64,000 bases of DNA from Comamonas sp. (lineage in GTDB: Bacteria > Pseudomonadota > Gammaproteobacteria > Burkholderiales > Burkholderiaceae_C): contig JADMKK010000021.1 in assembly GCA_015478895.1 (NCBI GenBank), positions 62,001 through 126,000 of the forward strand, written 5' to 3'. The number at the start of each line of letters is the position of its first letter. The stretch's first letter is position 1. The translations under genes were made by a program, and so were the position numbers. Below the pieces are notes generated by a model. The model was not told the origin of the DNA and searched no databases. It saw only the letters and a program-made list of their open reading frames with translations. This document shows positions 4,877 to 62,683 of this stretch, piece after piece.

Positions 4877-5924
4877 AGGCTGAACTCCCTGCGAGCGCCA
4901 TCACCAGCAACGCCAAAACCACCACCGTGGTCACCACGCGGGATGCCACTTGCACGGCGCGGTATACATGCTCGGCTTGCGGCACTTGCCCCTGCGCGTT
5001 GAGCACATACACGCCGGGTTTGCCCAAGCGGATGCGCAGCACCTGCGCCATGGCCCCCATGGGCCAGCCGCCGTTGGGCGACAGGGTGACTGCTGCATCG
5101 CGGCGTAAGGCAGACCACGCCACACCACGGGCCATGCAAGCCAGCAGCGCTGCCGTCATGCGCGCAGGCAGCCAGTTGAGCACATCGTCCGCTCGCGCGG
5201 CCCATTTACCGGCCCATTGCCAATAGCGGCGTTGGCTGCCTTGGCCGCGCCAGCCGGGGTAGCCCCACATGGCGTCTGCCGTATTCGCTAGGCGATAGGC
5301 CGCAGCACCGGGCAAGCCTAGCAGCGCAAACCAGAACAAAGGCGCAATGACCGAGTCGCTCAGGTTCTCAGCCAGCGTTTCAATGGCGCTTTCACGCACC
5401 GTGCCCGCATCAAGTTGCGTGGTGTCGCGGCTGACCAGCCATGACAAGCGCTCGCGACCGGCAGGCAGCGAGGTTTGCAAGGCCGCTTCCACCGCCAGCA
5501 CTTCGTTTTTCAGCATGCGCCATGACAGCAGCGGCTTAAGCAGCACGCCCAGCACCATGCCATCGATCCACCAAACGATAGTTGGCAGCCACCACTGCAG
5601 CACGGCGTAAAACGTAAAAAAGAGAGCTACTAGCCCGCACCAACTAACACTTCCAGCTACAAATGACTTGCAATGCGAGACATCATCACGGCCAGGTGCT
5701 ATTTTTTTACCTATTTTGTCTAGCAACTTGCCCATGCCCACCACGGGGTGCAGCCACGTGGGCGGCTCGCCCCACAGTTTGTCCAGCAGCAGCGCCACCA
5801 GCACGGCCAGCGTGGCCGTCATCACCAGCGCCGCAGCACCCTGCTGCGTTGGGCCTGTGGCGCTGGCCCATTGCCACAGCCACGCGGCAGGGCTTAGCGC
5901 CAGCAACGCATCGACTACCACCAT
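4866..5924 (-). CDS. cbiB: adenosylcobinamide-phosphate synthase CbiB/CobD
   Basis: A 352-residue integral membrane protein that attaches aminopropanol (phosphate) to adenosylcobyric acid. The family signature LLLDKLWGEPPTWLHPVVGMG lies near residues 45-65 and is followed by several membrane segments. LSDSVIAPLFWFALLGLPGAAAYR and NTADAMWGYPG in the middle are also typical. The ATG at 5922-5924 shares one base with the cobO stop (TGATG), a coupling arrangement; a TTG one codon upstream is less likely. Residues about 87-104 are encoded by a copy of the dispersed palindrome (5614-5666), which seems to have lengthened the protein just before a membrane segment without breaking the frame. Confidence 0.93.
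   Translation of the reverse strand: MVVVDALLALSPAAWLWQWASATGPTQQGAAALVMTATLAVLVALLLDKLWGEPPTWLHPVVGMGKLLDKIGKKIAPGRDDVSHCKSFVAGSVSWCGLVALFFTFYAVLQWWLPTIVWWIDGMVLGVLLKPLLSWRMLKNEVLAVEAALQTSLPAGRERLSWLVSRDTTQLDAGTVRESAIETLAENLSDSVIAPLFWFALLGLPGAAAYRLANTADAMWGYPGWRGQGSQRRYWQWAGKWAARADDVLNWLPARMTAALLACMARGVAWSALRRDAAVTLSPNGGWPMGAMAQVLRIRLGKPGVYVLNAQGQVPQAEHVYRAVQVASRVVTTVVVLALLVMALAGSSAYVV
5614..5666. repeat. dispersed palindrome copy inside cbiB
   Basis: AAAAAAGAGAGCTACTAGCCC, 14-base loop, ACACTTCCAGCTACAAATGA. It keeps the cbiB frame and encodes about residues 87-104. Confidence 0.7.
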
Positions 5925-6493
5925 CAATCTTCAATCCCACGCTGCGCAGGCACGCCCGCTTTGAAGGCGTGCTTGATCATCTGCATCTCGGTCACGGTAT
6001 CGGCCACGTCAATGATTTCCTGCGGGCAACGGCGCCCCGTCAGGCAAACATGCACCTCCTTAGGGCGTGCGGCCAGCGTGTCGAGCACCTCTTGCAGCGG
6101 CAGCCAGCCGTAGATCAGCGGGTAAGTCACCTCATCGAGCACCACCAGAAAATACTCGCCCGACAGGATCGCTGCCTTCGCTTTGGCCCAGCCATCGCGC
6201 GCCAGTTGGCCGGAGTGCTCCAAGTCTTTGCTCTTCCAGCTAAAGCCATCGCCCAGCCCTTCCACAGGCAGGCCGACTTGCTCGGCCAGTCGGTGCTCAC
6301 CAAAACGCGCCGTGGGCACTTTCATGAACTGGAACACCTTGACCGCCTTGCCCCGGCCCGTGGCGCGGAAAGCCAGGCCAAAGGCGGCCGTGCTTTTGCC
6401 CTTGCCGTCGCCGGTGTTGACGATGACCAGGCCACGGCGCTCGCCCTCAGGCTTTTCATAGGGCTTGGACGATGGGGGATTTTCAATTTTCAT
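5924..6493 (-). CDS. cobO: cob(I)yrinic acid a,c-diamide adenosyltransferase CobO/BtuR
   Basis: A 189-residue corrinoid adenosyltransferase of the CobA/CobO/BtuR family that transfers adenosyl from ATP to Co(I) corrinoid. The P-loop NTGDGKGKST is at residues 26-35; VVLDEVTYPLIYGWL near 130 and CLTGRRCP near 160 are family hallmarks. The length matches the family. It serves both de novo synthesis and salvage of imported corrinoid, fitting the co-transcribed btuB and btuF. It overlaps cbiB by one base. The start codon lies in the terminal GCTATGAAAAT part of a dispersed palindrome (about 6488-6534), so the translation start region may derive from that repeat. Confidence 0.95.
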   Translation of the reverse strand: MKIENPPSSKPYEKPEGERRGLVIVNTGDGKGKSTAAFGLAFRATGRGKAVKVFQFMKVPTARFGEHRLAEQVGLPVEGLGDGFSWKSKDLEHSGQLARDGWAKAKAAILSGEYFLVVLDEVTYPLIYGWLPLQEVLDTLAARPKEVHVCLTGRRCPQEIIDVADTVTEMQMIKHAFKAGVPAQRGIED

Positions 6494-6534
6494 AGCTACT
6501 TACCAAGGTCTGACGAGGGCCAGACCGTTATTTC
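6488..6534. repeat. dispersed palindrome copy over the cobO start codon
   Basis: TTTCATAGCTACTTACC, AAGGTCTG, then CAGACCGTTATTTC. The CAT at 6491-6493 is the complement of the cobO ATG. The core differs more from the consensus than other copies. Confidence 0.55.
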
Positions 6535-6567
6535 ATCTAAATAAACAGGTGGAAATGTGGTGCCAAT

Positions 6568-10788: not shown

Positions 10789-10868
10789 GGGGAACATTGA
10801 CAGATTCGCCCTGCCGACCTCCCCGTCAGCAATTGGGCAAACATTGCCTGACATCCATCAGGCAGACC

Positions 10869-11094
10869 TTCGTTGGCCGGTATCCGGGCTGACCTGACAC
10901 TTCCTTGCCTTCCCATGCGCATCGCAAGCGATGCACACAGTGGCGTAGTGAAGGAAGGGGCCTCTGAAACTCAGAGGCCAAGGCTCACCGTTGCGGGGAC
11001 AGCGCAGGCTAGAAAACCACCCAAGTTTGGGTCATCTTCACTCTGCTTCCCGTTTAACTGCGCTGCCATGAACAGCAGCGCGAGCACCAACGAA
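10869..11094 (-). ncRNA. cobalamin riboswitch (AdoCbl aptamer)
   Basis: Minus-strand RNA directly upstream of btuB. The B12 box appears as CAGCCCGGATACCGGCCA (complement of 10874-10891) and the conserved core CGCTGTCCCCGCAA lies at the complement of 10991-11004. The ends form a perfect 8-base-pair P1 (TTCGTTGG from 11087-11094 with CCAACGAA from 10869-10876). Two further perfect stems are visible: CCTCTGA/TCAGAGG (10961-10977) and GCATCGC/GCGATGC (10919-10934). About 80 bases separate the aptamer from the btuB start; I see no strong terminator with a U-tract there, so translational control of btuB looks more likely. It should repress the seven-gene operon when adenosylcobalamin is abundant. 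Confidence 0.95.
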
Positions 11095-11099
11095 CCGCA

Positions 11100-11105
11100 A
11101 TTCTA
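11100..11105 (-). promoter_or_regulatory. candidate -10 element for the riboswitch operon
   Basis: On the minus strand TAGAAT lies just upstream of the first base of P1, which places the predicted transcript start near 11092-11094, where the aptamer begins. No good -35 hexamer is visible at 16-18 bases. Confidence 0.45.
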
Positions 11106-11164
11106 GTGCGTCGCGGCACAACAAGCTGTACCCAGGTTATGTTGCGCACGCAAAACCTATAAGG

Positions 11165-11215
11165 CAAAACAGCTGCTAGCCCTTGCGGCACTTGGGCCGA
11201 CAGCTATCTATTTAA
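11165..11215. repeat. dispersed palindrome copy (btuB riboswitch/fadJ gap)
   Basis: AACAGCTGCTAGCCCTTGC followed by a short loop and CTTGGGCCGACAGCTATC. The two halves are imperfectly complementary. It matches the copies at 46284, 56886 and 62403 in core and spacing. Confidence 0.75.
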
Positions 11216-11273
11216 GAATCCGATTGCGCACCACCAGTGCTTGGAGTAGCAAAATTCACTGGCGATTGCGGCA

Positions 11274-13325
11274 TCAAATGCTCAGCAAATGCAGATCGCC
11301 CTTCACAAAGCCGTGGCCCACGTGCTCGGCCAGTTCCTGCTGCATGCTGGCCTGCGTGGCCGCATCCAACTGGCTCAACCAGAACAACGGGCCGCCCTCC
11401 CAGCGCGGGAAGCCATAGCCCTGCACCAGCGCCACATCAATGTCTGACGGCTGGCGGGCCACGCCTTCGGCCAGCAGCAGTGCCGCTTCGTTGCACATGG
11501 CCATCAATGCACGGCGCACGATTTCTTCGTCGCTCAGCGTTCGCCGTGGCAAGCCACGCGCAGCGGACGCCTGCTCAATCACGGCTTGCACCGAGCTGTC
11601 CACGGCTGCGGATTTTTTACCCTCGGCATAGCTGTAATAGCCTGCGCCGGTCTTGCGGCCCAAGCGGCCTTGCTCACACAGCGCATCAAGAATGGACACA
11701 TAGCGCTCCTGCGGGTCGCGCGTAGCGGCTTGCGATTTACGCATGCGCCAGGCAATGTCGAGCCCGGACAGATCAGCCACCGCAAACGGGCCCATGGCAA
11801 AGCCAAATTTTTGCAGGGCAGCATCGACTTGCTCAGGCAAAGCACCGTCTTCCAGCATGAATTCGACTTGCTTGCGGTAGGCGTTGTAGATGCGGTTGCC
11901 GATAAAGCCAAACCCATTGCCGCACAGCACGGGCAGCTTGCCCAGCTTTTTGCCCAGCGCCATGGCCGTGGCAATCGCTTGCGGGGTGGAGGATGCAGCT
12001 TTCACCACTTCCAGCAGCTTCATCACGTTGGCCGGGCTGAAGAAATGCAGACCAATCACATCCTGCGGGCGCGCGGTGGCGTTGGCAATGGCGTCAATGT
12101 CCAGGTATGAGGTGTTGGTGGCCAGCACCGCACCTGGGCGGGCGTGCTGGTCGATCCTGGCAAACACTTGCTGCTTGACTTGCAGGTCTTCAAACACAGC
12201 TTCAATCACCACGTCCACAGCGGCCAAGTCTTCCCAGGCCAAAGAACCTTGCAAAGCCGCTTTGCGGGCCTGTGCCTTGTCGGCGCTCAGTTTCTGGGCG
12301 GTGACACGCTGGTCATAAAAATCGCGCACGCGCTGCAGGCCGCGCTCCAACGCAGCATGGTCTTGCTCCAGCAACAGCACTCGCAAGCCTGCATCCAGCG
12401 CGCTAATGGCAATGCCTGTGCCCATGGTGCCTGCACCGATGATGGCGATGTGCGCAAAAGGCAGCGCTGGCACATCCAGCGTGGCGGGCAATTTGGTGGT
12501 CTGGCGCTCCGCAAAGAACTGGTGACGCAGCGCAAACGCATCGCGCCCCAGCCGCAGGTTCTGGAACACTGTGCGCTCTTTGGCCAAAGCTTCGTCGATG
12601 GGCAGCTCTGCGCACCAGCGCACCGCCTCAATGGCCGCAGCCACATTGGGGCGATTTTTCCCCTTGCGCAACAGCTGCTGTGCCAAGGCATCCCATGCGG
12701 CCGTATCCACCGGTGCGACAGCTTCATCACGGATGCGCTGTTTGCGGCCCTGCATACCCTTGGCAAATGCGACAGCGCCTTGCAGCAGATCGCCCTGAAC
12801 AACCTGCTCCACCAGATGCAAGTCATGGGCTTGCTCCGCCGTAATGCGCTCACCGCTGCACACCAGCTCCAGCCCTTTGAGCAGGCCCGTGCGACGCGGC
12901 ACGCGCTGGGTGCCACCGGCACCGGGAATCATGCCCAGCGTAATTTCTGGCAGGCCCAAGCGGGTGCCAGGCGCTGCTACGCGGGCATCGCAAGCCAGCG
13001 AAAGCTCCAACCCGCCACCCAGTGCGGCACCATGCAAAGCCGCGACCACGGGCTTGCTGCAGCCTTCAATAGCAGCAATCACTACCGGCAACTGGGGTTC
13101 TTGCAATGGCTGACCAAATTCGCGCAAATCGGAGCCTGCCACAAAGGTTTTACCAGCGCCGATCAGCACGGCGGCCTGCAGCGCAGGGTCGGCCTGCAAC
13201 TGGGCCACGGCATCCAGTACGCCTTGGCGCACGCCCAGCGATCCGGCGTTGATGGGGGGGTTGTCGATCCAGATCACCAGCACCTGATCGACGCATTCTG
13301 TACGTACCAATTTCACTTCACTCAT
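11274..13325 (-). CDS. bifunctional enoyl-CoA hydratase / 3-hydroxyacyl-CoA dehydrogenase
   Basis: A 683-residue FadB/FadJ-like fusion. The N-terminal crotonase domain (about 1-190) keeps both catalytic glutamates, in GGGLELSLACD and LPEITLGMIPGAGGTQR. The dehydrogenase domain starts with IIGAGTMGTGIAI (NAD-binding, near 300) and keeps the catalytic His in IGLHFFSPANVMKL; two C-terminal 3HCDH repeats follow. It converts enoyl-CoA through 3-hydroxyacyl-CoA to 3-ketoacyl-CoA. The ATG at 13325 follows a good AGGTGAG site; the open frame extends to 13385 but overlaps the MmgE/PrpD gene. No thiolase partner is adjacent, and neighbours suggest a dedicated organic-acid route rather than housekeeping beta-oxidation. 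The domain layout is closest to monomeric peroxisomal-type multifunctional enzymes. Confidence 0.9.
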   Translation of the reverse strand: MSEVKLVRTECVDQVLVIWIDNPPINAGSLGVRQGVLDAVAQLQADPALQAAVLIGAGKTFVAGSDLREFGQPLQEPQLPVVIAAIEGCSKPVVAALHGAALGGGLELSLACDARVAAPGTRLGLPEITLGMIPGAGGTQRVPRRTGLLKGLELVCSGERITAEQAHDLHLVEQVVQGDLLQGAVAFAKGMQGRKQRIRDEAVAPVDTAAWDALAQQLLRKGKNRPNVAAAIEAVRWCAELPIDEALAKERTVFQNLRLGRDAFALRHQFFAERQTTKLPATLDVPALPFAHIAIIGAGTMGTGIAISALDAGLRVLLLEQDHAALERGLQRVRDFYDQRVTAQKLSADKAQARKAALQGSLAWEDLAAVDVVIEAVFEDLQVKQQVFARIDQHARPGAVLATNTSYLDIDAIANATARPQDVIGLHFFSPANVMKLLEVVKAASSTPQAIATAMALGKKLGKLPVLCGNGFGFIGNRIYNAYRKQVEFMLEDGALPEQVDAALQKFGFAMGPFAVADLSGLDIAWRMRKSQAATRDPQERYVSILDALCEQGRLGRKTGAGYYSYAEGKKSAAVDSSVQAVIEQASAARGLPRRTLSDEEIVRRALMAMCNEAALLLAEGVARQPSDIDVALVQGYGFPRWEGGPLFWLSQLDAATQASMQQELAEHVGHGFVKGDLHLLSI

Positions 13326-24557: not shown

Positions 24558-24651
24558 GATGGCATTTTGGACATCGCGCTTACCCAGACCCGATGACCCG
24601 CAAACGCACTCAATCTAGGCTTTAGGCAAGGTTGGCAGGATGACACATCCT

Positions 24652-24694
24652 AAAAAGATAGCTACCTGCCGTTATGTTTGCTAGTTTTCATAGT
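24652..24694. repeat. dispersed palindrome copy (dctM/nhaA gap)
   Basis: AAAAGATAGCTACCTGCC, then GTTATG, then TTTGCTAGTTTTCATAG. This is a degenerate copy in the opposite orientation to the one at 46284 and most similar to the copy at 40144. Confidence 0.6.
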
Positions 24695-24760
24695 CAAACC
24701 TCATCAATAACCAGAAAACAGAAGGGCTTACTGCTCTCATTACTGATAAACACGGAAGAG

Positions 24761-24795: not shown

Positions 24796-24893
24796 TGGGT
24801 GCCCGCTGCATACGGTGGCGATGGCAGGTGAATGTTCATGCGCAGGTCGGGCCGCCTGCGCTGCACGTTATGCGTGCGCGCCCGCCTTTTGCA
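24796..24893 (+). ncRNA. structured nhaA leader RNA, possible nhaA-I (Li+/Na+) riboswitch
   Basis: A G/C-rich leader between the predicted start site and the nhaA ATG. Visible pairings: hairpin GCGCAGG (24840-24846) / CCTGCGC (24855-24861); a GU-containing stem CGCTGC (24804-24809) / GGTGGCG; a possible pseudoknot GCCCG (24801-24805) with CGGGC (24848-24852); and GGGTGC (24797-24802) with GCGCCC (24878-24883), which would bring the 5' end next to the translation start. Unpaired GGCGATGGCAGGTGAA looks like a conserved core. Position and layout recall the nhaA-I motif reported as a lithium-responsive riboswitch, but I match it from memory of the class, not by model. No Shine-Dalgarno sequence is visible outside this fold. 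Confidence 0.5.
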
Positions 24894-26276: not shown

Positions 26277-26291
26277 ATGCACGCAGCGCAT

Positions 26292-26332
26292 AAAAAAGCC
26301 GCTGCCTTGTCACCAAAGGCAGCGGCTTTTTT
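26292..26332. terminator. bidirectional terminator between nhaA and macB-like gene
   Basis: Perfect 17-base arms AAAAAAGCCGCTGCCTT / AAGGCAGCGGCTTTTTT with a 7-base loop. A- and T-tracts on both sides let it serve the convergent genes on each strand. Confidence 0.95.
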
Positions 26333-26354
26333 GCGTGGATGCTGAATGCAGCGC

Positions 26355-35169: not shown

Positions 35170-35175
35170 ATCATC

Positions 35176-35224
35176 ATTGATAGCTACCTACCCTTGCTAT
35201 ATAAGGGCTAGAGGCATATTTTAT
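35176..35224. repeat. dispersed palindrome copy (cobA/chemoreceptor gap)
   Basis: TTGATAGCTACCTACCCTTGC, short loop, AAGGGCTAGAGGCATATTTT. One of the best conserved copies; its complement aligns with the copies at 46284 and 62403. Confidence 0.85.
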
Positions 35225-35412
35225 GCTTATTTAAAGAACCAGGGCCGTACTGGTTAGCCCGGTGAAAGTTTTTGAAAAAAGCAAGCGCAATTGCGGCGGG
35301 TGAGCAGGCTGCCTACAAGATCTGCGATCTGTCTTATTTTTGCTATCTACATTCGTGAAAATGTCACGTAATAGTGTTTTATTGGTAAGTATTAGCGATT
35401 GCGAGGCGATTC

Positions 35413-37845: not shown

Positions 37846-39123
37846 ATGACCCGCCACGCCACCAGCCCCTCGCTCTCGAAATTTGACGCAGTCATCATTG
37901 GTGCCGGGGCTGCGGGGCTGTTTTGCGCCGCCCAGGCGGGACAGCTAGGCCTCAAAGTCTTGCTGATTGACCACGCCGAAAAAGTGGCCGAAAAAATCCG
38001 CATCTCCGGCGGCGGGCGCTGCAACTTCACCAACCGCGATCTGGATGTGCGCGCGCCACACAAACACTATGTGGGGCAGAACCCGCAGTTTTGCCGCTCC
38101 GCCCTGTCGCGCTATACGCCCTCTGACTTCATCGCACTGATGGACAAGCACGGCATTCCCTACGAAGAAAAACACAAAGGCCAGCTGTTTGCCACCACCA
38201 GCGCGGAAGACATCATCCGCATGCTGCTGGCCGAATGCGCAGCGGGCGGCGTGGAGCACTGGCAACCTTGCGCTGTTAAAAAAGTAGTGTTTTTGCCTTC
38301 TAGCCCAGACACAGCAACGGCTGGCAGCTATGAAATTCACACAGACCGTGAAACGGTCTCCGCGCCACGTCTGGTCATTGCGACCGGTGGTCTGTCGATT
38401 CCCAAAATTGGCGCCACCGACTTTGGCTACCGGCTGGCCCAGCAATTCAAGCTGCCGCTGATTGAGCGCCGTGCAGGCTTGGTGCCGCTGACCTTTGATG
38501 GCACGGGCTGGCAACCGTATGCGCAGTTGGCAGGCCTGGCGCTGCCAGTGGAAATCAGCACCGGCAGCAAAAAAGAGCGCATGACGTTCCATGAAGATTT
38601 GCTGTTCACGCACCGCGGCCTGTCTGGCCCGGCGGTGCTGCAAATTTCCAGCTACTGGAAAGACGGTACGCCGCTGCACATCAACCTGCTGCCCGGCACC
38701 GACATGGCCGCGTTGCTGCAAGACGCCAAAAACCGCTCGCGCAAACTGGTTGCCAACGAGCTGGCGGCACACATGCCCACGCGCCTGGCCGACGCCTGGA
38801 CCAGCCAGCAGCCCGAGCTGCAGCGCCCCATCAACGAAGCCAGCGACAAAGCGCTGACCAAGCTGGCCGAACAACTGAGCCGCTGGGAGATCACGCCCAA
38901 TGGCTCTGAGGGCTATAAAAAGGCCGAAGTCACCTTGGGCGGTGTGGACACCAAAGCCCTGTCGCAACAGACCATGGAAGCCAAAACCCAGCCCGGTCTG
39001 TACTGCATTGGCGAGGTGGTGGACATCACCGGCTGGCTGGGTGGCTACAACTTTCAGTGGGCATGGGCCAGCGGTTTTGCCTGCGCGCAGGCCATGGCGC
39101 AGCAACACGCTGAGACAGCTTAA
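37846..39123 (+). CDS. HI0933-family FAD-dependent oxidoreductase (YhiN-like)
   Basis: A 425-residue flavoprotein of the HI0933/YhiN family. The FAD dinucleotide-binding motif VIIGAGAAGLFCAAQAG starts at residue 16; EKIRISGGGRCNFTN near 50, VIATGGLSIPKIGATDFGY near 180, and CIGEVVDITGWLGGYNFQWAWASG near 385 are family hallmarks. Members have no established reaction. Residues about 148-165 (FLPSSPDTATAGSYEI) coincide with a copy of the dispersed palindrome at 38290-38337, an in-frame insertion in a loop of the substrate domain. Confidence 0.93.
   Translation: MTRHATSPSLSKFDAVIIGAGAAGLFCAAQAGQLGLKVLLIDHAEKVAEKIRISGGGRCNFTNRDLDVRAPHKHYVGQNPQFCRSALSRYTPSDFIALMDKHGIPYEEKHKGQLFATTSAEDIIRMLLAECAAGGVEHWQPCAVKKVVFLPSSPDTATAGSYEIHTDRETVSAPRLVIATGGLSIPKIGATDFGYRLAQQFKLPLIERRAGLVPLTFDGTGWQPYAQLAGLALPVEISTGSKKERMTFHEDLLFTHRGLSGPAVLQISSYWKDGTPLHINLLPGTDMAALLQDAKNRSRKLVANELAAHMPTRLADAWTSQQPELQRPINEASDKALTKLAEQLSRWEITPNGSEGYKKAEVTLGGVDTKALSQQTMEAKTQPGLYCIGEVVDITGWLGGYNFQWAWASGFACAQAMAQQHAETA
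38290..38337. repeat. dispersed palindrome copy inside the flavoprotein gene
   Basis: TTTTTGCCTTCTAGCCC, 13-base loop, GGCTGGCAGCTATGAAATTC. Matches the core and both flanks of the intergenic copies but lies wholly inside a coding sequence and keeps frame. Confidence 0.75.
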
Positions 39124-40143: not shown

Positions 40144-40186
40144 CAAAAAAAAGGAGCTATTAGTCCTTGTCAATGCTAGTTTTCAG
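40144..40186. repeat. dispersed palindrome copy (yqeY/metallo-hydrolase gap)
   Basis: AAAAAAAAGGAGCTATTAGTCC, short loop, ATGCTAGTTTTCAG. A degenerate copy most similar to that at 24652. Confidence 0.55.
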
Positions 40187-40358
40187 TGTCTTTTGAGATT
40201 GAAAACCAAGCAAACCAAGGGGCTGCAGCTCCTTTTTTTACGCCTAAATGGATGACACGGACTAGGACACGTCTGACAGTACATCTACCGTCTTGTCAGC
40301 TCAGGGTGGTGGCATTAAAAATGCTTCTCTCTTTTTACAACCACCAAGGATGCCCACC

Positions 40359-45360: not shown

Positions 45361-46284
45361 TCAACTACCCCTTGAACGCCACAACCAGCGCCCACCCATC
45401 TGATTCACTAGCATGCCCAACAACACGCCCAGCGTGCCCAGCCATTGCATGCCGGTGGGGAATTCACCCAGCAAGAGCATGGCAGAAATCAAACCAATCA
45501 CCGGCACCAGCAGCGACAACGGCGCCACCGTGCTGGCTGGATAGCGCTGCAGCAATTGCGTCCAGAGGCCATAGCCCAGCAAGGTGGACAGCAGCGCCAG
45601 ATACGCGATGACCCCGAGCCCTTTCCATGTGATGGCTTGCAACTGCTGCTGCATGGCATCGACCCCGCCTTCCAGCCACACGGACAGCAGCAGCATCGGA
45701 AGGATAGGAAAGACACTGCTCCACACCAGAAATGGCACGGGCTCATAGGCGCCGTACTTGGCCGCGTGGCGCGTAATCAGGTTGGAGGCGGCCCACATGG
45801 CGGCCGACCCCACCGTGCACAAAAACCCGATCAGCGTCATCTCCGAAGCGCTGTTGCCGTGTGCGGAGCCAATGGTGATCAATCCCACAATCGCGATGCA
45901 CAGGCCCAGCCACTGCCAAGGCTGCGGACGCTCTTTCAAAAACGCAGCGGCCATCAGTAACGTGATGAAGGCTTGGGTTTGCAGCACCACCGAGGCCATG
46001 CCAGCCGGCATACCCAGTTGCATGCCCACAAACAGCAGCCCAAACTGGCCCACCCCCTGCACCAGGCCGTAAGTCGCCAGCAGGCCCCAAGACAAGGTTT
46101 TGGGCGGGCGCACAAAAAATAGAAATGGCAACGACGCCGCCATAAAGCGCAGCGCACACAGCAGCAAAGGCGAGAGCTCTTGCAAGCCCCATTTCATCAC
46201 CACGAAGTTCACCCCCCACACCACGATCACGACGAGTGCCAGCAGCCAGTCTGCGCCGCTCAATCCCTTGCTGTTGTTATGCAT
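45361..46284 (-). CDS. EamA/DMT-family transporter
   Basis: A 307-residue inner membrane protein with ten predicted membrane segments in two EamA repeats. WLLALVVIVVWGVNFVVMKWGL opens the first repeat and MTLIGFLCTVGSAAMWAASNLI the second; STLLGYGLWTQLLQRYPASTVAPLSLLVPVIG is typical of the EamA (YdeD) subgroup that exports cysteine pathway metabolites. The substrate here is unknown. The short upstream region contains a dispersed palindrome copy and the pmbA terminator. Confidence 0.9.
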   Translation of the reverse strand: MHNNSKGLSGADWLLALVVIVVWGVNFVVMKWGLQELSPLLLCALRFMAASLPFLFFVRPPKTLSWGLLATYGLVQGVGQFGLLFVGMQLGMPAGMASVVLQTQAFITLLMAAAFLKERPQPWQWLGLCIAIVGLITIGSAHGNSASEMTLIGFLCTVGSAAMWAASNLITRHAAKYGAYEPVPFLVWSSVFPILPMLLLSVWLEGGVDAMQQQLQAITWKGLGVIAYLALLSTLLGYGLWTQLLQRYPASTVAPLSLLVPVIGLISAMLLLGEFPTGMQWLGTLGVLLGMLVNQMGGRWLWRSRGS

Positions 46285-46333
46285 GTTTTTGGCATCTAGC
46301 CCTTGCCCTGTCTAGGCAAGAAGCTATAAATTT
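46284..46333. repeat. dispersed palindrome copy (EamA/pmbA gap)
   Basis: TTTTTGGCATCTAGCCCTTGC, short loop, GGCAAGAAGCTATAAATTT. It aligns almost base for base with the rpoD-upstream copy at 62403. Confidence 0.85.
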
Positions 46334-46350
46334 ATTGATATTGATGGACG

Positions 46351-46407: not shown

Positions 46408-47817
46408 TTAGCTGCCCGCCACCTTCATGCGGTTGATCAATATCGAACCCACCGTCTTGGCTCCGTAGTTATACGCGTCTGCGCCAATCGCCTCAATGCC
46501 CATGTACATGTCTTTGAGGTTGCCCGCAATCGTGATCTCTTGCACCGGGAAAGCGATCTCGCCGTTTTCTACCCAAAAGCCCGAGGCACCGCGCGAGTAG
46601 TCACCCGTGACGTAGTTCACGCCCTGGCCCATCAACTCGACCACCAACAGGCCCGTGCCCAGTTTTTTGAGCATGGCATCCAGATCATCACCACGGCGCG
46701 TCAGGCGCGAGGTCATGGCGAGGTTGTGCGAGCCACCGGCATTGCCCGTGGTCTTCATGCCCAGCTTGCGCGCCGAGTAGCTCGACAGGAAGTAGCCCTC
46801 TACGCGGCCACTGTCGAGCACCATGCGACGCTGAACGCGCACACCTTCATCATCGAAGGGCGAGCTGCCTTTGCCGCGCAGGATGAACGGGTCTTCTTCG
46901 ATGCTGATGTGCTTGGGGAAAACTTGCTTGCCCAGCGAGTCCAGCAAGAAGCTGCTCTTGCGGTACAGCGTGCCGCCGCTGATGGCTTGCACAAAACCAC
47001 CCAGCAGGCCAGCGGCCACGGGCGACTCAAACAGCACCGGGCATTCGATGGTCGCAATCTTGCGGCTGCCCAAGCGGCTCAAAGCGCGCTGCGCAGCGTA
47101 GCGGCCAATCTCTTCGGGCGAAGCCAGCTCTACCGCATCGCGCATGGAGCTGTACCAGTAGTCGCGCTGCATCTCACCATTGCGACCGGGCAGGGACGCA
47201 ATAGGCGCCACCGACACGCTGTGGCGCGAGCTGGCATAACCACCGCGAAAACCACGCGTGTGGGCGCTAAAAAAGTGGCTTTGCTGGGCCGAAACGCTGG
47301 CGCCTTCGCTGTTGGTGATGCGCTTGTGCGTTTTCATCGCGGCATCTTCCGCCTGAATCGCAATGCGCGCAGCTGCTTCGCTGGTCACATTCCAGGCGTG
47401 GAACAGATCCATGTCTTTGTGCGTGTCTTGCGGCGCGATGTCATCGGCATCGGGCAAACCTGCCGTCGGGTCTTCGGCAGTAAAGCGGGCGATATCGAAA
47501 GCCGCCTGCACCGTTTGCTGAATCGCAGCTTCCGAGAAGTCCGAGGTGCTGGCATTGCCACGGCGTTGGCCCACATACACCGTCACGCCCAGCGACTTGT
47601 CGCGGTTGCGTTCCACGGTCTCCAGCTCACCCTTGCGCACACTCACAGACAGGCCGCAGCCTTCTGAGGCATCAGCACCAGCGTCGGTGGCGCCCAGCTT
47701 TTTGGCGTGTGCAAGGGCCTGGTCCACCAGACCTTCAAAAAAGGAACGGCTGTAGCTAAAGCCGGAATCAGCCTGTGCTGCGGTGGTGCTTGTGGAGCGT
47801 GTGCGGGGTTTATTCAT
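46408..47817 (-). CDS. pmbA: metalloprotease-like regulator PmbA/TldE
   Basis: A 469-residue protein of the PmbA/TldD family. GCGLSVSVRKGELETVERNRDKSLGVTVYVG near 55-85 is the typical first domain; the middle has NSEGASVSAQQSHFFSAHTRGF and the C-terminal beta domain has GNAGGSHNLAM, YVTGDYSRGASGFWVENGEI and VGSILINRM. TldD carries the catalytic HExxxH; PmbA is its partner without it, and I see no such motif here. The TldD/E complex degrades or trims peptides. The ATG at 47817 gives the usual length. It is divergent from darP, as in many proteobacteria. Confidence 0.93.
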   Translation of the reverse strand: MNKPRTRSTSTTAAQADSGFSYSRSFFEGLVDQALAHAKKLGATDAGADASEGCGLSVSVRKGELETVERNRDKSLGVTVYVGQRRGNASTSDFSEAAIQQTVQAAFDIARFTAEDPTAGLPDADDIAPQDTHKDMDLFHAWNVTSEAAARIAIQAEDAAMKTHKRITNSEGASVSAQQSHFFSAHTRGFRGGYASSRHSVSVAPIASLPGRNGEMQRDYWYSSMRDAVELASPEEIGRYAAQRALSRLGSRKIATIECPVLFESPVAAGLLGGFVQAISGGTLYRKSSFLLDSLGKQVFPKHISIEEDPFILRGKGSSPFDDEGVRVQRRMVLDSGRVEGYFLSSYSARKLGMKTTGNAGGSHNLAMTSRLTRRGDDLDAMLKKLGTGLLVVELMGQGVNYVTGDYSRGASGFWVENGEIAFPVQEITIAGNLKDMYMGIEAIGADAYNYGAKTVGSILINRMKVAGS

Positions 47818-49268: not shown

Positions 49269-50468
49269 ATGAAGAACCACGCTGTACTGACCTTTATTTT
49301 TGCCATGTGCACCATGATGGGTGCGCTGGGCATTGACACTTACCTCCCGTCCTTTCACGCCATTGCGCAAGAGTTTGGCGTCGGCCCCACCGCCGTGCAG
49401 CAAACGCTGAGCGTGTACGTGCTGGCTATGGCCATCACCATGCTGTTTTACGGCACGCTGAGCGACACGTTTGGCCGCCAGCGCGTGCTGATTTTTTCGG
49501 CCACGGGCTATGCCCTTACCTCATTTGCCGCAGCCTTTGTGACCAGCATTGAAGGCATGGTGGCGATTCGCTTTTGCCAGGGCTTGATGGCTGGCGCGGG
49601 CATGGTGGTGGTGCGCGCCATGGTGCAAGACAAATACCAGGGCACCGACGCCCAGCGCATGATGAGCATGGTCATGTTCTGCTTTGGCCTAGCGCCCGCT
49701 TTGGCGCCAATTTTTGGTGGCTGGCTGCAAGCGCACGGTGGCTGGCGGGCGGCATTTTTCTTCCTGTCCGCATTCGGCGTGGTGTTGGCGCTGCTGTGCT
49801 GGCGTGCGTTGCCCGAGACACTACCGCGTGAAAAACGTGTGCCGCTCAAACTGCGTGTCATTGCTGGTAACTACCTGATCGCGCTACGCAACCCGCAATT
49901 TCGATTGATGGTGATCGGCCTGGCGCTGATGGCGGGTGCCAACGCCATCTACATCAGTTCTGCGGCGGAATTCATCATGGGTGTGCTCAAGCTCAGCGAG
50001 ACTGCGTTTGGCTGGCTGTTTATTCCGCTGATTGGCGGCTCCATGGTGGGCTCCGCCATCTCCGGCACCTTGGCCAAACGGATTGCACCGCAGGTGCAAA
50101 AAACCATTGGCTACAGCTGTCTGGCGCTGGGTTGCGCCAGCAATGTGCTCTACCACCTGTTCACCGACATGCCCGTGGTGCCGTGGGCCGTGCTGCCGAT
50201 AACGGTCTACACCTTGGGAATCGCCTTGCTGATGCCGATTTTGTCGCTGCAAATCATGGGCATGTTCCCCCAGATGCGCGGTTTGGCGTCCTCCCTGCAA
50301 GGCTTTGCGCAGATGAGCGTGTTTGCCGCCATGGCCGGCTTGGTCGTGCCGCATTTGTTTCACAGCGGTCTGGCACTGGCACTGGGGCAGATGCTGACGG
50401 TGGGACTGGGCATGCTGGTCTGGTGGTGGTCGACCCACCATGTCGCTAAAAAAAATAAGAGCGCCTAG
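49269..50468 (+). CDS. Bcr/CflA-family multidrug MFS transporter
   Basis: A 399-residue 12-segment major facilitator of the drug/proton antiporter group. GALGIDTYLPSFHAIAQEFGV in segment 1, YGTLSDTFGRQRVLIFSATGY (loop 2-3 motif A, GxxxDxxGRR-like) and GLMAGAGMVVVRAMVQDKYQG are typical of Bcr/CflA. It probably exports small hydrophobic compounds such as sulfonamides or chloramphenicol-like drugs. The last codons and the TAG stop fall inside a dispersed palindrome copy (50450-50500), so the C-terminal KKNKSA may be repeat-derived. Confidence 0.92.
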   Translation: MKNHAVLTFIFAMCTMMGALGIDTYLPSFHAIAQEFGVGPTAVQQTLSVYVLAMAITMLFYGTLSDTFGRQRVLIFSATGYALTSFAAAFVTSIEGMVAIRFCQGLMAGAGMVVVRAMVQDKYQGTDAQRMMSMVMFCFGLAPALAPIFGGWLQAHGGWRAAFFFLSAFGVVLALLCWRALPETLPREKRVPLKLRVIAGNYLIALRNPQFRLMVIGLALMAGANAIYISSAAEFIMGVLKLSETAFGWLFIPLIGGSMVGSAISGTLAKRIAPQVQKTIGYSCLALGCASNVLYHLFTDMPVVPWAVLPITVYTLGIALLMPILSLQIMGMFPQMRGLASSLQGFAQMSVFAAMAGLVVPHLFHSGLALALGQMLTVGLGMLVWWWSTHHVAKKNKSA

Positions 50469-50500
50469 CCCTTGTTATTCATAGACTTCAGATAGTTTTG
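50450..50500. repeat. dispersed palindrome copy over the MFS gene stop codon
   Basis: AATAAGAGCGCCTAGCCCTTG, loop, AGACTTCAGATAGTTTTG. The TAG stop of the transporter lies within the CTAGCCC core. Confidence 0.65.
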
Positions 50501-50548
50501 TATTGCTAACGCTTGAAAATCAACGGCCCATAGCTATCAATTTCAAAC
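50500..50548. repeat. second, degenerate palindrome copy beside the first
   Basis: TTGCTAACGCTTG, loop, CGGCCCATAGCTATCAATTTC, in the same orientation as the neighbouring copy. Confidence 0.5.
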
Positions 50549-50652: not shown

Positions 50653-51732
50653 TTACAGCTTTTGCGACGACATGAAGTTGTCGAAACGGCCTTCGGCAAA
50701 GCGAAACCACAGCACTTGGTCGCGCTGGAAATTGCGGTAGTCCGCATAGATTTTTTTCCAATCTGGGTTGCTGGTGTCCAGACCGGCATAGACCTCCATG
50801 GAAGCCTTGAACGAAGCGTCCATGACTTGCTGGGGAAACGGCAGCACTTTGGCACCCGCAGCCACCAATTGCTTCAATGCCACGGGGTTGCGCGCATCGT
50901 AGCGGCCTTGGCAGGTGACGTGGGCTTCGTAGGCTGCTGCCTTGACGATGGCCTTGTACTCATTGCTCAGGCTGTTGAAGGCCTTGTCGTTGATGTAGAA
51001 AGAAAGGTTCAGTGAACCTTCCCACCAGCCGGGATAGTAGTAAAACGGTGCTACCTTGTTCAGGCCCAGCTTCAGATCGTCATAAGGGCCAATCCACTCT
51101 GCGGCATCGATCGTGCCTTTTTCCAGCGACTGATAAATTTCGCCTGCAGGAATGTTCTGAGGCACAGCACCCAGCTTTTCCAGCACCTTGCCGGCAAAGC
51201 CACCCACGCGGAACTTCAGGCCCTTGATGTCTTCGGTGGTCTTGACTTCCTTGCGGAACCAGCCGCCCATCTGCGCGCCCGTATTACCACCCATGAACGG
51301 CACAATGTTGTACTTGGCATAGAACTCAGTCATCAGCTTATGACCATTGCCATCCACCATCCACGATGTCAGCTGGCGCGAGTTCATTCCAAAAGGAATC
51401 GCACCGCCAATGGCAAACACTTCGTTCTTGCCAAAAAAGTAGTAAGGCGCTGTGTGGGCTACTTCCACGCTGCCACTTTGCACACCGTCGACCACATTGA
51501 AGGCAGGCATTAACTCGCCAGCCTGGTGCACCGTCACATCAAACTTACCGCCTGTCATCGCTTTGACCGATTGGGCAAACACGTCAGCAGCACCATAGAT
51601 GGTGTCGAGCGACTTCGGAAAGCTAGAGGCAATGCGCCAGCGCAGTGCAGGTTGTGCATGCACGGCTGGGGCTGCTGCGGCAGCCAGAACACCGGCGATA
51701 CCGGCATTTTTGAGCATAGAACGACGATCCAT
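50653..51732 (-). CDS. TRAP transporter periplasmic binding protein, copy 1
   Basis: A 359-residue DctP-family protein of the TakP/FcbT1 group. The Tat-type signal MDRRSMLKNAG with the Ala-rich stretch ending VHAQ is followed by ALRWRIASSFPKSLDTIYG. FFGKNEVFAIGGAIPFGM, GGNTGAQMGGWFRKEVK and FRVGGFAGKVLEKLG (with the carboxylate-binding Arg of this group) and YYYPGWWEGSLNL are conserved with copy 2. AAGGAGA precedes the ATG. No permease is adjacent; the DctQM pair at 22115 belongs to the same TRAP subgroup. Ligands in this group include alpha-keto acids and chlorobenzoates; the specific ligand is unknown. Confidence 0.92.
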   Translation of the reverse strand: MDRRSMLKNAGIAGVLAAAAAPAVHAQPALRWRIASSFPKSLDTIYGAADVFAQSVKAMTGGKFDVTVHQAGELMPAFNVVDGVQSGSVEVAHTAPYYFFGKNEVFAIGGAIPFGMNSRQLTSWMVDGNGHKLMTEFYAKYNIVPFMGGNTGAQMGGWFRKEVKTTEDIKGLKFRVGGFAGKVLEKLGAVPQNIPAGEIYQSLEKGTIDAAEWIGPYDDLKLGLNKVAPFYYYPGWWEGSLNLSFYINDKAFNSLSNEYKAIVKAAAYEAHVTCQGRYDARNPVALKQLVAAGAKVLPFPQQVMDASFKASMEVYAGLDTSNPDWKKIYADYRNFQRDQVLWFRFAEGRFDNFMSSQKL

Positions 51733-51904: not shown

Positions 51905-52987
51905 TTAGAGTTTCACTGAGGTCATGTACTGGTTGAAGCGCAGCTCGGAGAAGCGCTCCCACAGCAACTGGTCGCGCTGGAAGGCGCGCATGTCCTGGTG
52001 AATTTCCTTGAAAGCAGGGTCCTTGGCTTCGTGTTCGGCAAACACTTCCATCGAAGCCTTAAAGCCAGCATCCATCACATCCTTGGGGAATGCCTTGAGC
52101 TGGGTCTTGTCGGCCACCAGCTTTTTCAGGGCAACGGGGTTGAAGGCGTCGTACTTGGCCGTCATGTCGCGGGCCGCCACACGGGTTGCAACATCAACGA
52201 TGGCTTTGTACTCGTCGGACAACGCAGCGTAGGCCTTGGTGTTCACGAAGAACTCCAGCTCTGCACCACCTTCCCACCAACCGGGGTAGTAGTAAAACGG
52301 CGCAACTTTGTTAAAGCCCAGCTTCTGGTCATCGTGCGGGCCAACAAACTCGGTGGAATCCAGCGTACCTTTTTCCAGTGCCTGGTACACATCGCCGGCA
52401 GGCATGTTTTGTGAGACCACGCCCAGCTTGGCCATGGCCTCACCGAACAGGCCGCCGCCCAGGCGCATCTTCAAGCCCTTCAAGTCGGCCACTGACTTGA
52501 TTTCTTTGCGGTACCAGCCGCCCATCTGGGTGCCCGTGTTGCCAGCGCTGTAGCTCTTGATGTTGTAGTTGGCGCAGAACTTGTCAAACAGCTTGCGGCC
52601 GTTGCCATGCTCCATCCACGCATCCATCTGGCGCGCTGTCAAGCCAAACGGCACAGCGCAGCCAAACGCAAAAATGGAGTTCTTGCCCGTGAAGTAGTAC
52701 GGCGCAGTCTGCGCCATTTCAATGGTGCCGTTCTCCAGCGCATCGACCACACCAAAAGCGGGCATCAACTCGCCGGCTGCATGCAGCGAAACCTCAAACT
52801 TGCCACCTGACAATGCTTTGACGGTCTGTGCAAACTTTTCGCCGCTGCCAAAGATAGTGTCCAGCGACTTGGGAAAGCTCGAAGCCAGACGCCAGCGCAC
52901 TGCAGCTTGCGCGTGAACCGCTGGGGCTGCTGCGGCAGCCAAGACACCAGCAATGCCAGCTTTTTTGATGAGGGAACGACGGTCCAT
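51905..52987 (-). CDS. TRAP transporter periplasmic binding protein, copy 2
   Basis: A 360-residue paralogue of the downstream binding protein with the same Tat signal (MDRRSLIKKAG...VHAQ), RWRLASSFPKSLDTIFG, FTGKNSIFAFGCAVPFGL, AGNTGTQMGGWYRKEIK, MRLGGGLFGEAMAKLG and YYYPGWWEGGAELEF. The two proteins are clearly related along their whole length but differ in the ligand-pocket segments, suggesting duplication followed by change in specificity. TAAGGAGA precedes the ATG. As for copy 1, no permease lies nearby. The Tat signal implies folding, or ligand binding, before export. Confidence 0.92.
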   Translation of the reverse strand: MDRRSLIKKAGIAGVLAAAAAPAVHAQAAVRWRLASSFPKSLDTIFGSGEKFAQTVKALSGGKFEVSLHAAGELMPAFGVVDALENGTIEMAQTAPYYFTGKNSIFAFGCAVPFGLTARQMDAWMEHGNGRKLFDKFCANYNIKSYSAGNTGTQMGGWYRKEIKSVADLKGLKMRLGGGLFGEAMAKLGVVSQNMPAGDVYQALEKGTLDSTEFVGPHDDQKLGFNKVAPFYYYPGWWEGGAELEFFVNTKAYAALSDEYKAIVDVATRVAARDMTAKYDAFNPVALKKLVADKTQLKAFPKDVMDAGFKASMEVFAEHEAKDPAFKEIHQDMRAFQRDQLLWERFSELRFNQYMTSVKL

Positions 52988-56688: not shown

Positions 56689-56885
56689 CCCTCTTGATCC
56701 GTCAAAGTGACCGCGCAAATTCTGTGGGGTACGTAGCGTCCATCCAAATGAAGAACACCATCAGCGACCCCGCCGCAAGAGGGTGACTACCAGAGTCTGC
56801 AAAAAATGGCATGCAGTATTTCCATGGTGGGTATCGCGAAATGCTGGGCAAACGCCTCCAAACACGAATCGCTTTTTGCTATCCT

Positions 56886-56940
56886 CCTAAGAGCTACCTG
56901 CCCTTCTGCAGCAAGGGCTAGGGGCTGTTTTTACTTAAAA
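56886..56940. repeat. dispersed palindrome copy upstream of the EamA gene
   Basis: AAGAGCTACCTGCCCTTCTGC, AGCAAGGGCTAGGGGCTGTTT and an adjoining T/A-rich end. The inverse complement aligns with the copy at 11165. It ends about 45 bases before the ATG. Confidence 0.85.
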
Positions 56941-56985
56941 ACAGCAAACACTACAAAAACATATCAAACAGGGATAACAAAAACC

Positions 56986-60113: not shown

Positions 60114-60146
60114 ACCGCAGCTGGTTACCCCTTTCCCCTTCTTAAT

Positions 60147-60176: not shown

Positions 60177-60222
60177 CGTCCGCCCCAAAGCCCGAACGCA
60201 GCCATGCCGGACAATACGCCCT

Positions 60223-62238
60223 GTGTCCATCCCCCAATCTTTCATTCAAGAGCTACTCGCCCGCATCGACGTTGTCGATGTGGTGGGCCGCTACGTGCCC
60301 CTGAAAAAAGGCGGTGCCAATTTCATGGGCCTGTGCCCATTTCATGGCGAAAAGTCGCCCTCTTTCAGCGTGAGCCCAGCCAAACAGTTCTATCACTGCT
60401 TTGGCTGCGGGAAAAACGGCAATGCCATCAGTTTTTTGATGGACCACGCAGGCATGGGCTTCGTGGAAGCCGTGCAAGACCTCGCCAGCCAAGTTGGCAT
60501 GGTTGTCCCGCAGGAAGACGTCAGCCCGCAGGAGCGTGACCGGCAGGCAGCAGCCAAAGTCAAGCAAGCCACGCTCAACGATGTGCTGGAGCGTGCAGGG
60601 CATGCCTACCGCAACCAGCTCAAAGACAGCCCCCATGCGGTGCAATACCTCAAGCAACGCGGCGTCAGCGGTGCCATCTCCAGCAAATATGGCTTGGGCT
60701 ACGCACCAGCAGGTTGGCGCAATCTGGCCAGCGTGTTTCCGGAATATGACGATCCGCAACTGCAGGAAAGCGGCCTGGTCATCGTGGGCGAAGACGAAGA
60801 CAAGCGCTACGACCGCTTTCGGGACCGCATCATGTTCCCGATTCGCGATGTCAAAGGCCTGTGCATTGGCTTTGGCGGGCGCGTGCTGGGCGATGAAAAA
60901 CCCAAATACCTGAACTCTCCCGAAACGCCACTGTTCCACAAAGGGCGGGAACTCTACGGCCTGTTTGAAGCGCGCGATGCCCTGCGCAGCATGGGCTATG
61001 CCTTGGTCACTGAAGGCTATATGGATGTCGTGGCGCTGGCACAGCTGGGCTTTCCCAACGCCGTAGCCACACTGGGCACGGCCTGCACCGCCGACCACGT
61101 GCAAAAGCTGTTTCGTTTCACCGACTCCGTCGTGTTCAGCTTTGACGGTGACAGCGCCGGTCGCCGCGCTGCGCACAAAGCGCTCGAAGCCGCACTGCCC
61201 TATGCCACAGACACGCGCAACGTCAAATTTCTGTTCCTGCCTGCCGAGCATGACCCCGACAGCTTTATTCGTGAACAGGGCAGCGATGCGTTTGCTCGCC
61301 ACATCAGCAATGCCTTGCCACTGAACGCTTTTTTACTGGAAGCAGCCAGCGTTGACTGCGATTTGGGCCAGGCCCAAGGCCGCGCCAAGCTCTCCAGCCA
61401 GGCGCGCCCGCTGTGGAATCTATTGCCAGACGGCGCTTTCAAACGCCTGGTGCTGGCCGAGCTGGCCCAAAAGATTCACATCGAAACGCGAGAACTTTCC
61501 GAACTCTGGGCCCAGGCTGAAGCACAAGAAAAACGCTACCAGCGCAGCCCCAGCAAACCAGCCCTAAGCTTTGAAACCCCGCCCAGTGACTACGGCCACA
61601 GCGTGCCGGACTGGATGCCCGACTTCGCCCCCCCTCCACCGATGGCAGGCAGCCACGGTGCAGCGCGCAATTACCAAGATGGATGGCGCAGTAACCCGCG
61701 CAGTGACTGGAAACGCCCGGGCGGCGGCAAGTTTGATCGCAAAAAAGACAGCTGGCAGCCCATGTCCCAAGGGCCACGTGTGGCGCCCTCCACGGCGCCC
61801 GACCAAGCTGCGCGCCTGCTGCTGTCGCACATGCGGTTTATAGAACAGCTCGATAACGACGATCTGGACACCTTGGTGCACCTGCCTGCGCCGCACGGGC
61901 CGCTGTTCGCCTGGATTGAAAGCCACTTTCAAGACCATGGCCCGCTGCCTTGGGCCATCTTGAAAGAGCAAGCGGCCAACTCCGTCTACGGTGCTTTCGC
62001 CATCCAGCTGATGGAAAGCGACCACGGCCACCCCGAAGGTGAAGAAGCGGAGCAGCTTGCAGAATTGCGCCGCATATTGAGCCCCATGATGGCCAAGCGC
62101 ATCGAAGTGCTAGAGCGTGAAGCCCTGAATGCCTATGCCGCCAACCCCAGCGACACCAACATCCGCACGCACTACCAAGCTTTGGTTGAGCGTCGCAAGC
62201 AATTGCAGGCTGCTGCGCTACCACCTTCTGACAAGTAA
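60223..62238 (+). CDS. dnaG: DNA primase
   Basis: A 671-residue primase beginning at GTG. The CHC2 zinc finger CPFHGEKSPSF...YHCFGCG is at residues 38-64; the core includes VTEGYMDVVALAQLGFPNAVATLGT (TOPRIM glutamate), SFDGDSAGRRAAHKAL (DxD) and HDPDSFI. The C-terminal helicase-binding domain is preceded by a low-complexity linker (~440-520) rich in Pro, Gly, Ser and Arg. It synthesises RNA primers at the replication fork. No Shine-Dalgarno sequence is obvious before the GTG. Confidence 0.97.
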   Translation: MSIPQSFIQELLARIDVVDVVGRYVPLKKGGANFMGLCPFHGEKSPSFSVSPAKQFYHCFGCGKNGNAISFLMDHAGMGFVEAVQDLASQVGMVVPQEDVSPQERDRQAAAKVKQATLNDVLERAGHAYRNQLKDSPHAVQYLKQRGVSGAISSKYGLGYAPAGWRNLASVFPEYDDPQLQESGLVIVGEDEDKRYDRFRDRIMFPIRDVKGLCIGFGGRVLGDEKPKYLNSPETPLFHKGRELYGLFEARDALRSMGYALVTEGYMDVVALAQLGFPNAVATLGTACTADHVQKLFRFTDSVVFSFDGDSAGRRAAHKALEAALPYATDTRNVKFLFLPAEHDPDSFIREQGSDAFARHISNALPLNAFLLEAASVDCDLGQAQGRAKLSSQARPLWNLLPDGAFKRLVLAELAQKIHIETRELSELWAQAEAQEKRYQRSPSKPALSFETPPSDYGHSVPDWMPDFAPPPPMAGSHGAARNYQDGWRSNPRSDWKRPGGGKFDRKKDSWQPMSQGPRVAPSTAPDQAARLLLSHMRFIEQLDNDDLDTLVHLPAPHGPLFAWIESHFQDHGPLPWAILKEQAANSVYGAFAIQLMESDHGHPEGEEAEQLAELRRILSPMMAKRIEVLEREALNAYAANPSDTNIRTHYQALVERRKQLQAAALPPSDK

Positions 62239-62683
62239 TACTCAATAAATGAGCAGTGAGCCCTGATGTAAATTGGGTTTCAGATAGTTATCTATTTGAA
62301 AACCTAAAATATCAACGGTATACCGCTCTCTTATTGATAGCTTGCTTTCTTTTATCAGAGAGAAAACGGGCACTTGTAACAGAGGCAAAAAATATTTGCA
62401 GAAAAAATGCATTTAGCCCTTGCAATTTCTGGCAAACGCTATAATTAATCATTCATCGGCAAGAGCGACAGCAGCACCTCCGGCCCGGGCACCGTGATGG
62501 AATCACGTGTTTAGCAGCAATTGCTAGCCCAATATCCGCAAGGACTGCATACCAAATGATCGCCCAGACATCTTGCCGTGGAGCTTATTCGCTCCCCGTA
62601 CGTGCTTCAGTACGTCCATGCGCCGGGTTAGGTGGCGCTTGCGTTTTCCCTTTGTGAGATAGCTTTTGACCAAGAGGTAGTGC
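62239..62683 (+). promoter_or_regulatory. rpoD promoter and leader region
   Basis: A 445-base gap. TATAAT (62440-62445) is an excellent -10, placing the start near 62452 and leaving a ~230-base leader. TTGCAA (62420-62425) is present but only 14 bases away, so the -35 is unclear. The -10 lies at the end of a dispersed palindrome copy. The leader has possible hairpins GTGAT/ATCAC (near 62495) and CGTAC/GTACG (near 62600). GAGG precedes the rpoD ATG. No gene is visible; the first ~160 bases are A/T-rich and include another partial palindrome half (ATTGATAGCTTGC). Confidence 0.6.
62403..62450. repeat. dispersed palindrome copy carrying the rpoD -10
   Basis: CATTTAGCCCTTGC, loop, GGCAAACGCTATAATTAAT. 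It aligns with the copy at 46284 and its final AGCTAT(A)AA element reads CTATAATTAA here. Confidence 0.75.

Follow-up and report, generated by a model that had tools for sequence, protein, structure and literature searches.

The window, by which we mean the whole stretch of 64,000 nucleotides analysed here (G000:C21:62001-126000, part of the 3.2-Mb host genome G000), contains imperfect palindromes, at most six short and five long copies, dispersed among genes that include cbiB, a gene of the aminoacetone-oxidase family, and a dnaG-like gene. A preliminary description had listed twelve positions as one family of about a dozen. The repeat itself is real, but the positions belong to two related families, SHORT and LONG: a scan with model R1 places 11165, 35176, 38290, 46284, 56886, and 62403 in the short kind, while 5614, 24652, 40144, and 50450/50500 are of the long kind, 5614 being doubtful. 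The positions 50450 and 50500, counted there as separate copies, are the two arms of one long element, and the copy at 6488 is unsupported (R1 15.7 bits, E 0.1). Elsewhere in the window, an unrelated symmetric hairpin between convergent genes (26287-26333; R1 17.8 bits) looks like a plain terminator; near it and away from the elements lies a BcKCsr2 match (26291-26378) below the cut-off. Two neighbouring genes, the first encoding a DctP-like TRAP binding protein, contain direct repeats that are 69-74% identical (51016-51498 and 52268-52753) and likely reflect a gene duplication.

The core of the palindromes is over-represented both in the window and genome-wide. With up to two mismatches, TCTAGCCCTTGC occurs 15 times in the window versus 6.6 expected, and with up to three mismatches GGGCTANNAGCTAT occurs 59 times versus 36.7; none of 100 shuffles reaches either count. 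Exact GGGCTAGNAGCTAT is found 29 times in the 3.2-Mb genome, versus zero for the reversed control. Three models were used to follow the elements. R1 was built from 14 copies, the six short window copies included, so its recovering those six proves nothing. R2 was built from 62 copies of G000 and other genomes and contains, of the six short window copies, only the one at 35170; at E<=0.01 it recovers those at 35170, 11153, 56880, and 46273, with no match at 38290 or 62403. R3 was built from 27 long copies, those at 24650, 50450, and 40144 among them and those at 62242 and 5615 left out. Across G000, R1 gives at least 150 matches (some being both strands of one copy) and R3 at least 113. No Rfam family was found at any window element in a search up to E 5.

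The short element measures ~58-66 nt, spanning about -20 to about +37 or +45 in a column-by-column profile, and forms a hairpin with a 7-nt loop. From a left border TT it runs through an AT-rich left part, the stem TAGC[S]CTT, the loop ATNNANC, and the stem AAG[S]GCTA to GCAGCTATCAATTT, and its consensus ends are TTTTAAGC and AGCTATCAATTT. The loop is 7 nt in every copy among the matches listed, under a pattern permitting loops of 3-12 nt. As to G-U pairs and strand preference, one pair leans to each strand. The preliminary description spoke of the lack of a one-sided T-tract; the consensus of this kind has no conserved one.

The first short copy in the window (11153..11217, +; R2 40.8 bits, E 2.3e-7) lies downstream of a gene at 11274-13325(-) and upstream of a cobalamin riboswitch (10858-11106, -), which itself scores above the gathering score. 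The second (35170..35234, -; R2 60.7 bits, the copy itself being in R2) lies 2 nt past a uroporphyrinogen-III C-methyltransferase-like gene (34369-35169, +). Two others are situated between a pmbA-like gene (46408-47817, -) and an exporter-like gene (45361-46284, -), at 46273..46337 (+; R2 33.3 bits, E 4e-5), and between divergent called genes, at 56880..56944 (-; R2 37.4 bits, E 2.3e-6). A weak copy at 62402..62450 (+) is matched by R1 alone (37.4 bits, with the copy in R1).

The remaining short copy (38277..38341, +; R1 43 bits, the copy being in R1) falls within the coding sequence of the aminoacetone-oxidase-family gene (37846-39123, +), which encodes a TIGR00275-family enzyme. Its support comes from relatives, where 8 of 29 loci have an R2 match at the corresponding position of the orthologous gene. 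At this site, most homologs from outside the family and also some inside it are ~8 residues shorter (45 of 80 alignments listed); because eight residues are fewer than the whole element, the site is not a clean full-length insertion. The palindromes had been said to encode no protein, which is wrong for two, this copy and the doubtful one inside cbiB. Another in-gene site (L110:13147-13197, L234, L222) is of the short type in G000 and G010 and looks like the long type in G002, a possible size swap.

Some R1 matches spanned 92 nt, which pointed to the second family; the idea that they were an artefact of the model's length limit was ruled out by a paired-arm scan and by a scan without core pairs. 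The long element has an 80-nt core, nearly all of it stem, with A-tract and T-tract flanks, and here the claim of a missing T-tract fails. Its geometry, too, is fixed: the core is exactly 80 nt in 35 of 41 rows of the paired-arm scan, which permitted 78-89 nt, and with the core pairs unscored, 17 copies were found at 80 nt, one at 74, and none at the other 12 lengths between 74 and 87. The latter scan repeats the core count free of a selection bias, as the long G000 copies used for placement, anatomy, and ortholog-pairing counts had partly been chosen for GCC/GGC. Across 26 long copies, the outer arms are conserved, TTTC...GAAA lies near the loop, the middle varies yet is paired, and A-tract/T-tract flanks are present; the ends are mostly ATAG, AGAG, GGAG, or TGAG. 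Chance matches inside genes (window 12535, L120 12478, and L126 18783) had been dropped before the anatomy, the building of R3, the flank mapping, and the near-copy comparison.

Among the long copies in the window, that at 24650..24745 (+; R3 57.7 bits, in the model; fold z -0.73) follows a gene at 22744-24501(+); an nhaA-I RNA at 24797-24860 (+) scores above the gathering score. The copy at 40145..40240 (+; R3 66.8 bits, in the model), with its A-tract and T-tract, follows a gene at 39661-40107(+) and forms a strong hairpin (-43.4 kcal/mol, z -7.9). A third copy (50450..50545; R3 57.7 bits, in the model; z -0.79) lies between convergent genes, and a fourth, missed in the preliminary description (62242..62337; R3 50.9 bits, outside the model; z -8.3), sits just past the dnaG-like gene (60223-62238, +). 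The long-type candidate inside cbiB (5615..5710, -; gene 4866-5924, -; R3 31.1 bits, outside the model; z 0.34) is doubtful: weak matches at the same place occur in L302 and L303 alone of 20 loci, and congener homologs align without an insertion at that place of the protein.

Both families extend across the 3.2 Mb of G000 and occur patchily in Comamonadaceae, mostly after stop codons. Placement was judged on home-made gene calls over 464 kb, using the R1 copies with E<=0.1 and, from the window, three weaker matches. Intergenic position applies to 56 of the 62 R1 copies with context, versus ~13% of the sequence lying in gaps of >=55 nt; many begin within ~50 nt of a stop codon, in either orientation, and several copies occupy short gaps between codirectional genes. 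By gap type, the intergenic R1 copies divide into 37 codirectional, 14 convergent, and 5 divergent (p 0.023 by number of gaps), and the 25 intergenic long copies into 14, 11, and 0, respectively (p 1.9e-5 by number of gaps). Four of 29 long candidates fell inside called genes, three of which were taken as chance.

Across 22 congeners, R3 has 53-113 matches listed in 13 genomes, 35 in one, 4 in one, and none in seven. The two families largely co-occur in these congeners, the exceptions being G004 (0 short, 4 long), G007 and G018 (1 short, 0 long each), and G011 (8 short, 0 long). Genomes of other families in the same order gave R1 matches in 0 of 24 and R3 matches in 1 of 14. Within the family, R2 at E<=1e-4 and under stricter filters, with up to 21 matches scored per genome, finds the element in 74 of 250 genomes and 50 of 141 genera. 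In one family genome (G180), the first 16 matches listed are all on the + strand, and later ones are on both.

At three sites, some genera carry an element and others are 44-66 nt shorter. Site A is filled in L138 versus L146, L152, L136, and L162; in L166, L155, L153, and L148 its place is taken by different sequence of about the same length. Site B, whose flanks we take to be nirB-like and nirD-like reading frames from their translated ends, is filled in L142 and L138 versus L155 and L139, and site C is filled in L134 versus L152, L149, L144, and L179. No target duplication is visible in the alignments of these three sites across genera. Movement of the elements by insertion at some past time is supported.

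Between congeners, the picture is one of conservation in place. In a comparison with 1.195 Mb of G010, 33 of 85 G000 elements could be placed by both flanks (71-89% identical); the short list for this mapping was drawn up without window 6484 or any R1 match longer than 60 nt, and the gap test was run without two R3 matches truncated at the end of a stretch and without the R2 rows that were long copies. The orthologous G010 gap holds a copy of the same class at 14 of 15 long sites (R3) and 10 of 18 short sites (R2). For random 150-nt intervals, the share that overlaps such matches is 1.8% and 0.6%, respectively, a chance that is raised at the few gaps longer than 150 nt (up to 1.3 kb). At the fifteenth long site the match is to R2 instead of R3, and the other eight short sites have no R2 match at the orthologous gap. 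Vertical conservation with no empty sites, the finding that the preliminary description had named as speaking against mobile elements, is largely what congeners display; between genera, empty sites do occur. Copying has not been nil, since two G010 long copies at unrelated places (L263:7108 and L294:18036) share an identical inner stem segment and are alike at 71 of 80 positions, in a comparison that left out 59 of the 68 R3 places of G010. Among 29 long G000 copies, the two most similar are 72% alike.

The sequence of the conserved sites has changed considerably, and the pairing has been kept. Thirteen orthologous long cores are 39-68% identical between G000 and G010, with 76% and 71% standard pairs in the two genomes; among pairs changed on both sides, 81 of 108 stay paired, against a permuted mean of 65% and a maximum of 74%. 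This test used 13 of the 15 long sites, leaving out the cbiB site and a long site without an R3 match. Earlier covariation counts were inflated, as copies had been picked partly for pairing or motif; the ortholog comparison and the scan with the core pairs unscored are fairer.

One stem pair of the core has switched in both families. With the pair unscored, it is C-G in 16 of 17 long G000 copies versus G-C in 43 of 45 long G010 copies, and for the short kind, 27 of 29 G000 matches have AAGGGC as their right arm, where every match listed from 11 other congeners has AAGCGC. Copies of the GGG type also occur in G002, G022, and G036 (L046, L041, and L054), as found by R1, which favours that form; the switch therefore concerns most copies rather than every copy in a single lineage. 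Several genomes also have mismatched copies in which the left arm has CCC and the right arm GCG. Restriction avoidance of AGCGCT was rejected as the cause of the switch, this hexamer having an observed/expected ratio of 0.92 in G000. In both G000 and G010, the 8-mer AAGCGCTT is rarer than expected (0.37 and 0.61, respectively). This leaves as causes a factor reading the stem or copy-to-copy conversion; that entire elements were converted recently is disfavoured because even the best pair of long G000 copies is so dissimilar.

With places kept, sequence changed, and a pair swapped, the elements look less like still-jumping DNA and more like inherited sites read by a factor. The explanation that we prefer, at chances that we put at about even, is that they are REP/REPIN-like palindromes of two sizes sharing arms, which formerly inserted, are now inherited in place, and act as folded hairpins. 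They would have spread once by insertion and afterward been inherited where they stood. The folded hairpins may act at gene ends and between operon genes, most likely in RNA rather than in single-stranded DNA, where they would protect or end mRNA 3' ends. The stem core (GC[S]CTT paired with AAG[S]GC, flanked by AGC/GCT) would be read by a putative sequence-specific factor, perhaps one and the same for both sizes. Several observations count against this explanation. Most single window copies fold no better than shuffles, with 9 of 11 at z -1.33 to 0.36 and only the copies at 40145 and 62242 as outliers, and the 8 of 18 short sites mentioned above are unmatched in G010. The near-copy pair in G010, the GGG-type copies in G002, G022, and G036, and the low counts of AAGCGCTT in both genomes also weigh on this side.

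An unlikely alternative, though the strongest, is a REPIN population with slow turnover, in which REP doublets are copied as single-stranded DNA by the genome's own RAYT (a Y1/HUH transposase). The long elements fit the REPIN description in PMC3116915, and empty sites between genera and the near-copy pair in G010 also favour it. There is also a candidate enzyme, as G000 has a single PF01797 (RAYT-type) gene (G000:C8:87206-87433, L077) and 34 of 37 genus genomes have at least one match. On the other hand, no copy lies within ~2 kb of the RAYT gene in any of the 20 loci (L077-L096) covered out of the 34 genomes with a match: R2 copies are present in two of these loci, each >2.3 kb from the gene, and R3 gives only cross-matches to those two. 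G005, G012, and G029 likewise have elements, and no PF01797 match was found in them. The state of the catalytic residues points the same way. The RAYT tyrosine was located by a motif presumed to mark it, and the HUH pair from an alignment to the solved transposase 2xm3. Of the 20 genomes, only G007, G014, G018, G020, and G032 have both histidines and the tyrosine, with 0-1 short copies each; an HUH or Tyr residue is lost in 10 of the 10 copy-rich genomes and also in five copy-poor ones (Fisher p 0.033, ignoring shared ancestry). The conservation of sites between congeners likewise argues against continued copying. We reject the RAYT as the present mobiliser of G000, given the lack of adjoining copies and the lost residues, and the earlier suggestion of mobilisation in trans is, with G010 gaps keeping the same class, unsupported for G000 today.

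Congeners keep the RAYT open frame itself even though 15 of 20 loci have lost HUH or Tyr residues, possibly a domestication without nuclease activity. Downstream of the gene, most of L077-L096 share another conserved motif pair, about ATATGTCCCTAATTA ... GTATCTGACCCTAATTAAA; a pattern search for it gave no match, the pattern being so strict that it missed the RAYT locus itself.

Less probable still are MITE-like elements, moved in bursts by a transposase now absent or unrecognised and surviving as decaying relics. Filled and empty sites, an in-gene copy common to several genera, and the patchy census (74 of 250 family genomes) would all suit such a history. Relics would, however, lose pairing and length, both of which the orthologous copies keep; in addition, no target duplication was seen in the filled/empty alignments, and the 29 long G000 copies are only 72% alike in the best pair. 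Most doubtful are ordinary (bidirectional) intrinsic terminators resembling each other by chance, which would account for the A-tract/T-tract flanks of the long kind, the position after stops, and the convergent enrichment, but need neither a fixed 80-nt core nor a common core switching in concert, and fit poorly with the short kind's want of a conserved T-tract and with the several copies in short gaps between codirectional genes.

Returning to inherited hairpins read by a factor, we would tentatively go one step further, to a possibility that we rate below the explanation itself. Comamonadaceae may have an undescribed factor that reads the hairpin core at hundreds of gene ends; its specificity could have changed in the G000 lineage, and nearly all sites, in both size classes, would have tracked that change where they stand, through a compensatory exchange at one stem pair. 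Most discussion of REP-like repeats treats them as selfish DNA with side effects. Kept sites, kept pairing, and a swapped pair make it directly testable whether REP-like hairpins are functional sites or transposition debris, and the swap offers a handle, namely which gene changed alongside, on a possible factor binding RNA or single-stranded DNA hairpins.

Searches of the literature, mostly of non-subscription journals, found no paper for the core strings or for a palindromic intergenic repeat of Comamonadaceae, and no account of these elements was found in the available parts of PMC2817692, PMC3116915, PMC6006769, PMC3733652, PMC8266576, PMC3110155, and PMC12306157. The preliminary likening to REP or MITE-like elements stands as far as REP/REPIN-like anatomy and extragenic placement go, MITE-like elements being the less probable rival discussed above. 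With REPs and REPINs, as described in Nunvar 2010 (PMC2817692) and Bertels and Rainey 2011 (PMC3116915), the elements share the form of extragenic imperfect palindromes at high copy number. A REPIN is there given two conserved ends and a fixed-length spacer that keeps its pairing, and the long kind similarly has inverted conserved ends, a fixed-length spacer, a hairpin, and compensatory changes. RAYT-associated REPs accompany a RAYT gene flanked by the same palindromes (PMC2817692). Here, in contrast, the RAYT gene is unflanked by copies and intact only where copies are nearly absent, neither the short nor the long consensus ends carry a strict GTAG/GTGG tetranucleotide at the hairpin foot, and sites are conserved between congeners with a core pair switched in place. 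We do not file the elements as REPINs, because RAYT flanking and the GTAG feature were both looked for and not found.

Other palindromic repeats offer partial parallels. CGTC-tagged REPs and Rickettsia palindromic elements, as described in PMC3733652, are palindromic as well, lie downstream of genes and in some cases in frame within them, and lack a dedicated transposase; unlike these, the elements here have no CGTC tag in either consensus, come in two size classes sharing arms, and belong to another taxon. The beta-proteobacterial repeat elements (BRE), reported from Polaromonas, Rhodoferax, Delftia, and Acidovorax in PMC3110155, are similar in their ~90 bp with shorter forms and in their mostly intergenic position with some copies in coding sequences; by that description, Bordetella BRE have 69% GC and are often in tandem, whereas the long matches here have 26-50% GC and are dispersed. 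With intrinsic terminators the elements share a hairpin, a T-tract, and the position after genes, and they differ from them in fixed geometry, shared core, and core switch. In anatomy, then, they are closest to REPs and REPINs, and they may work as REP hairpins work.
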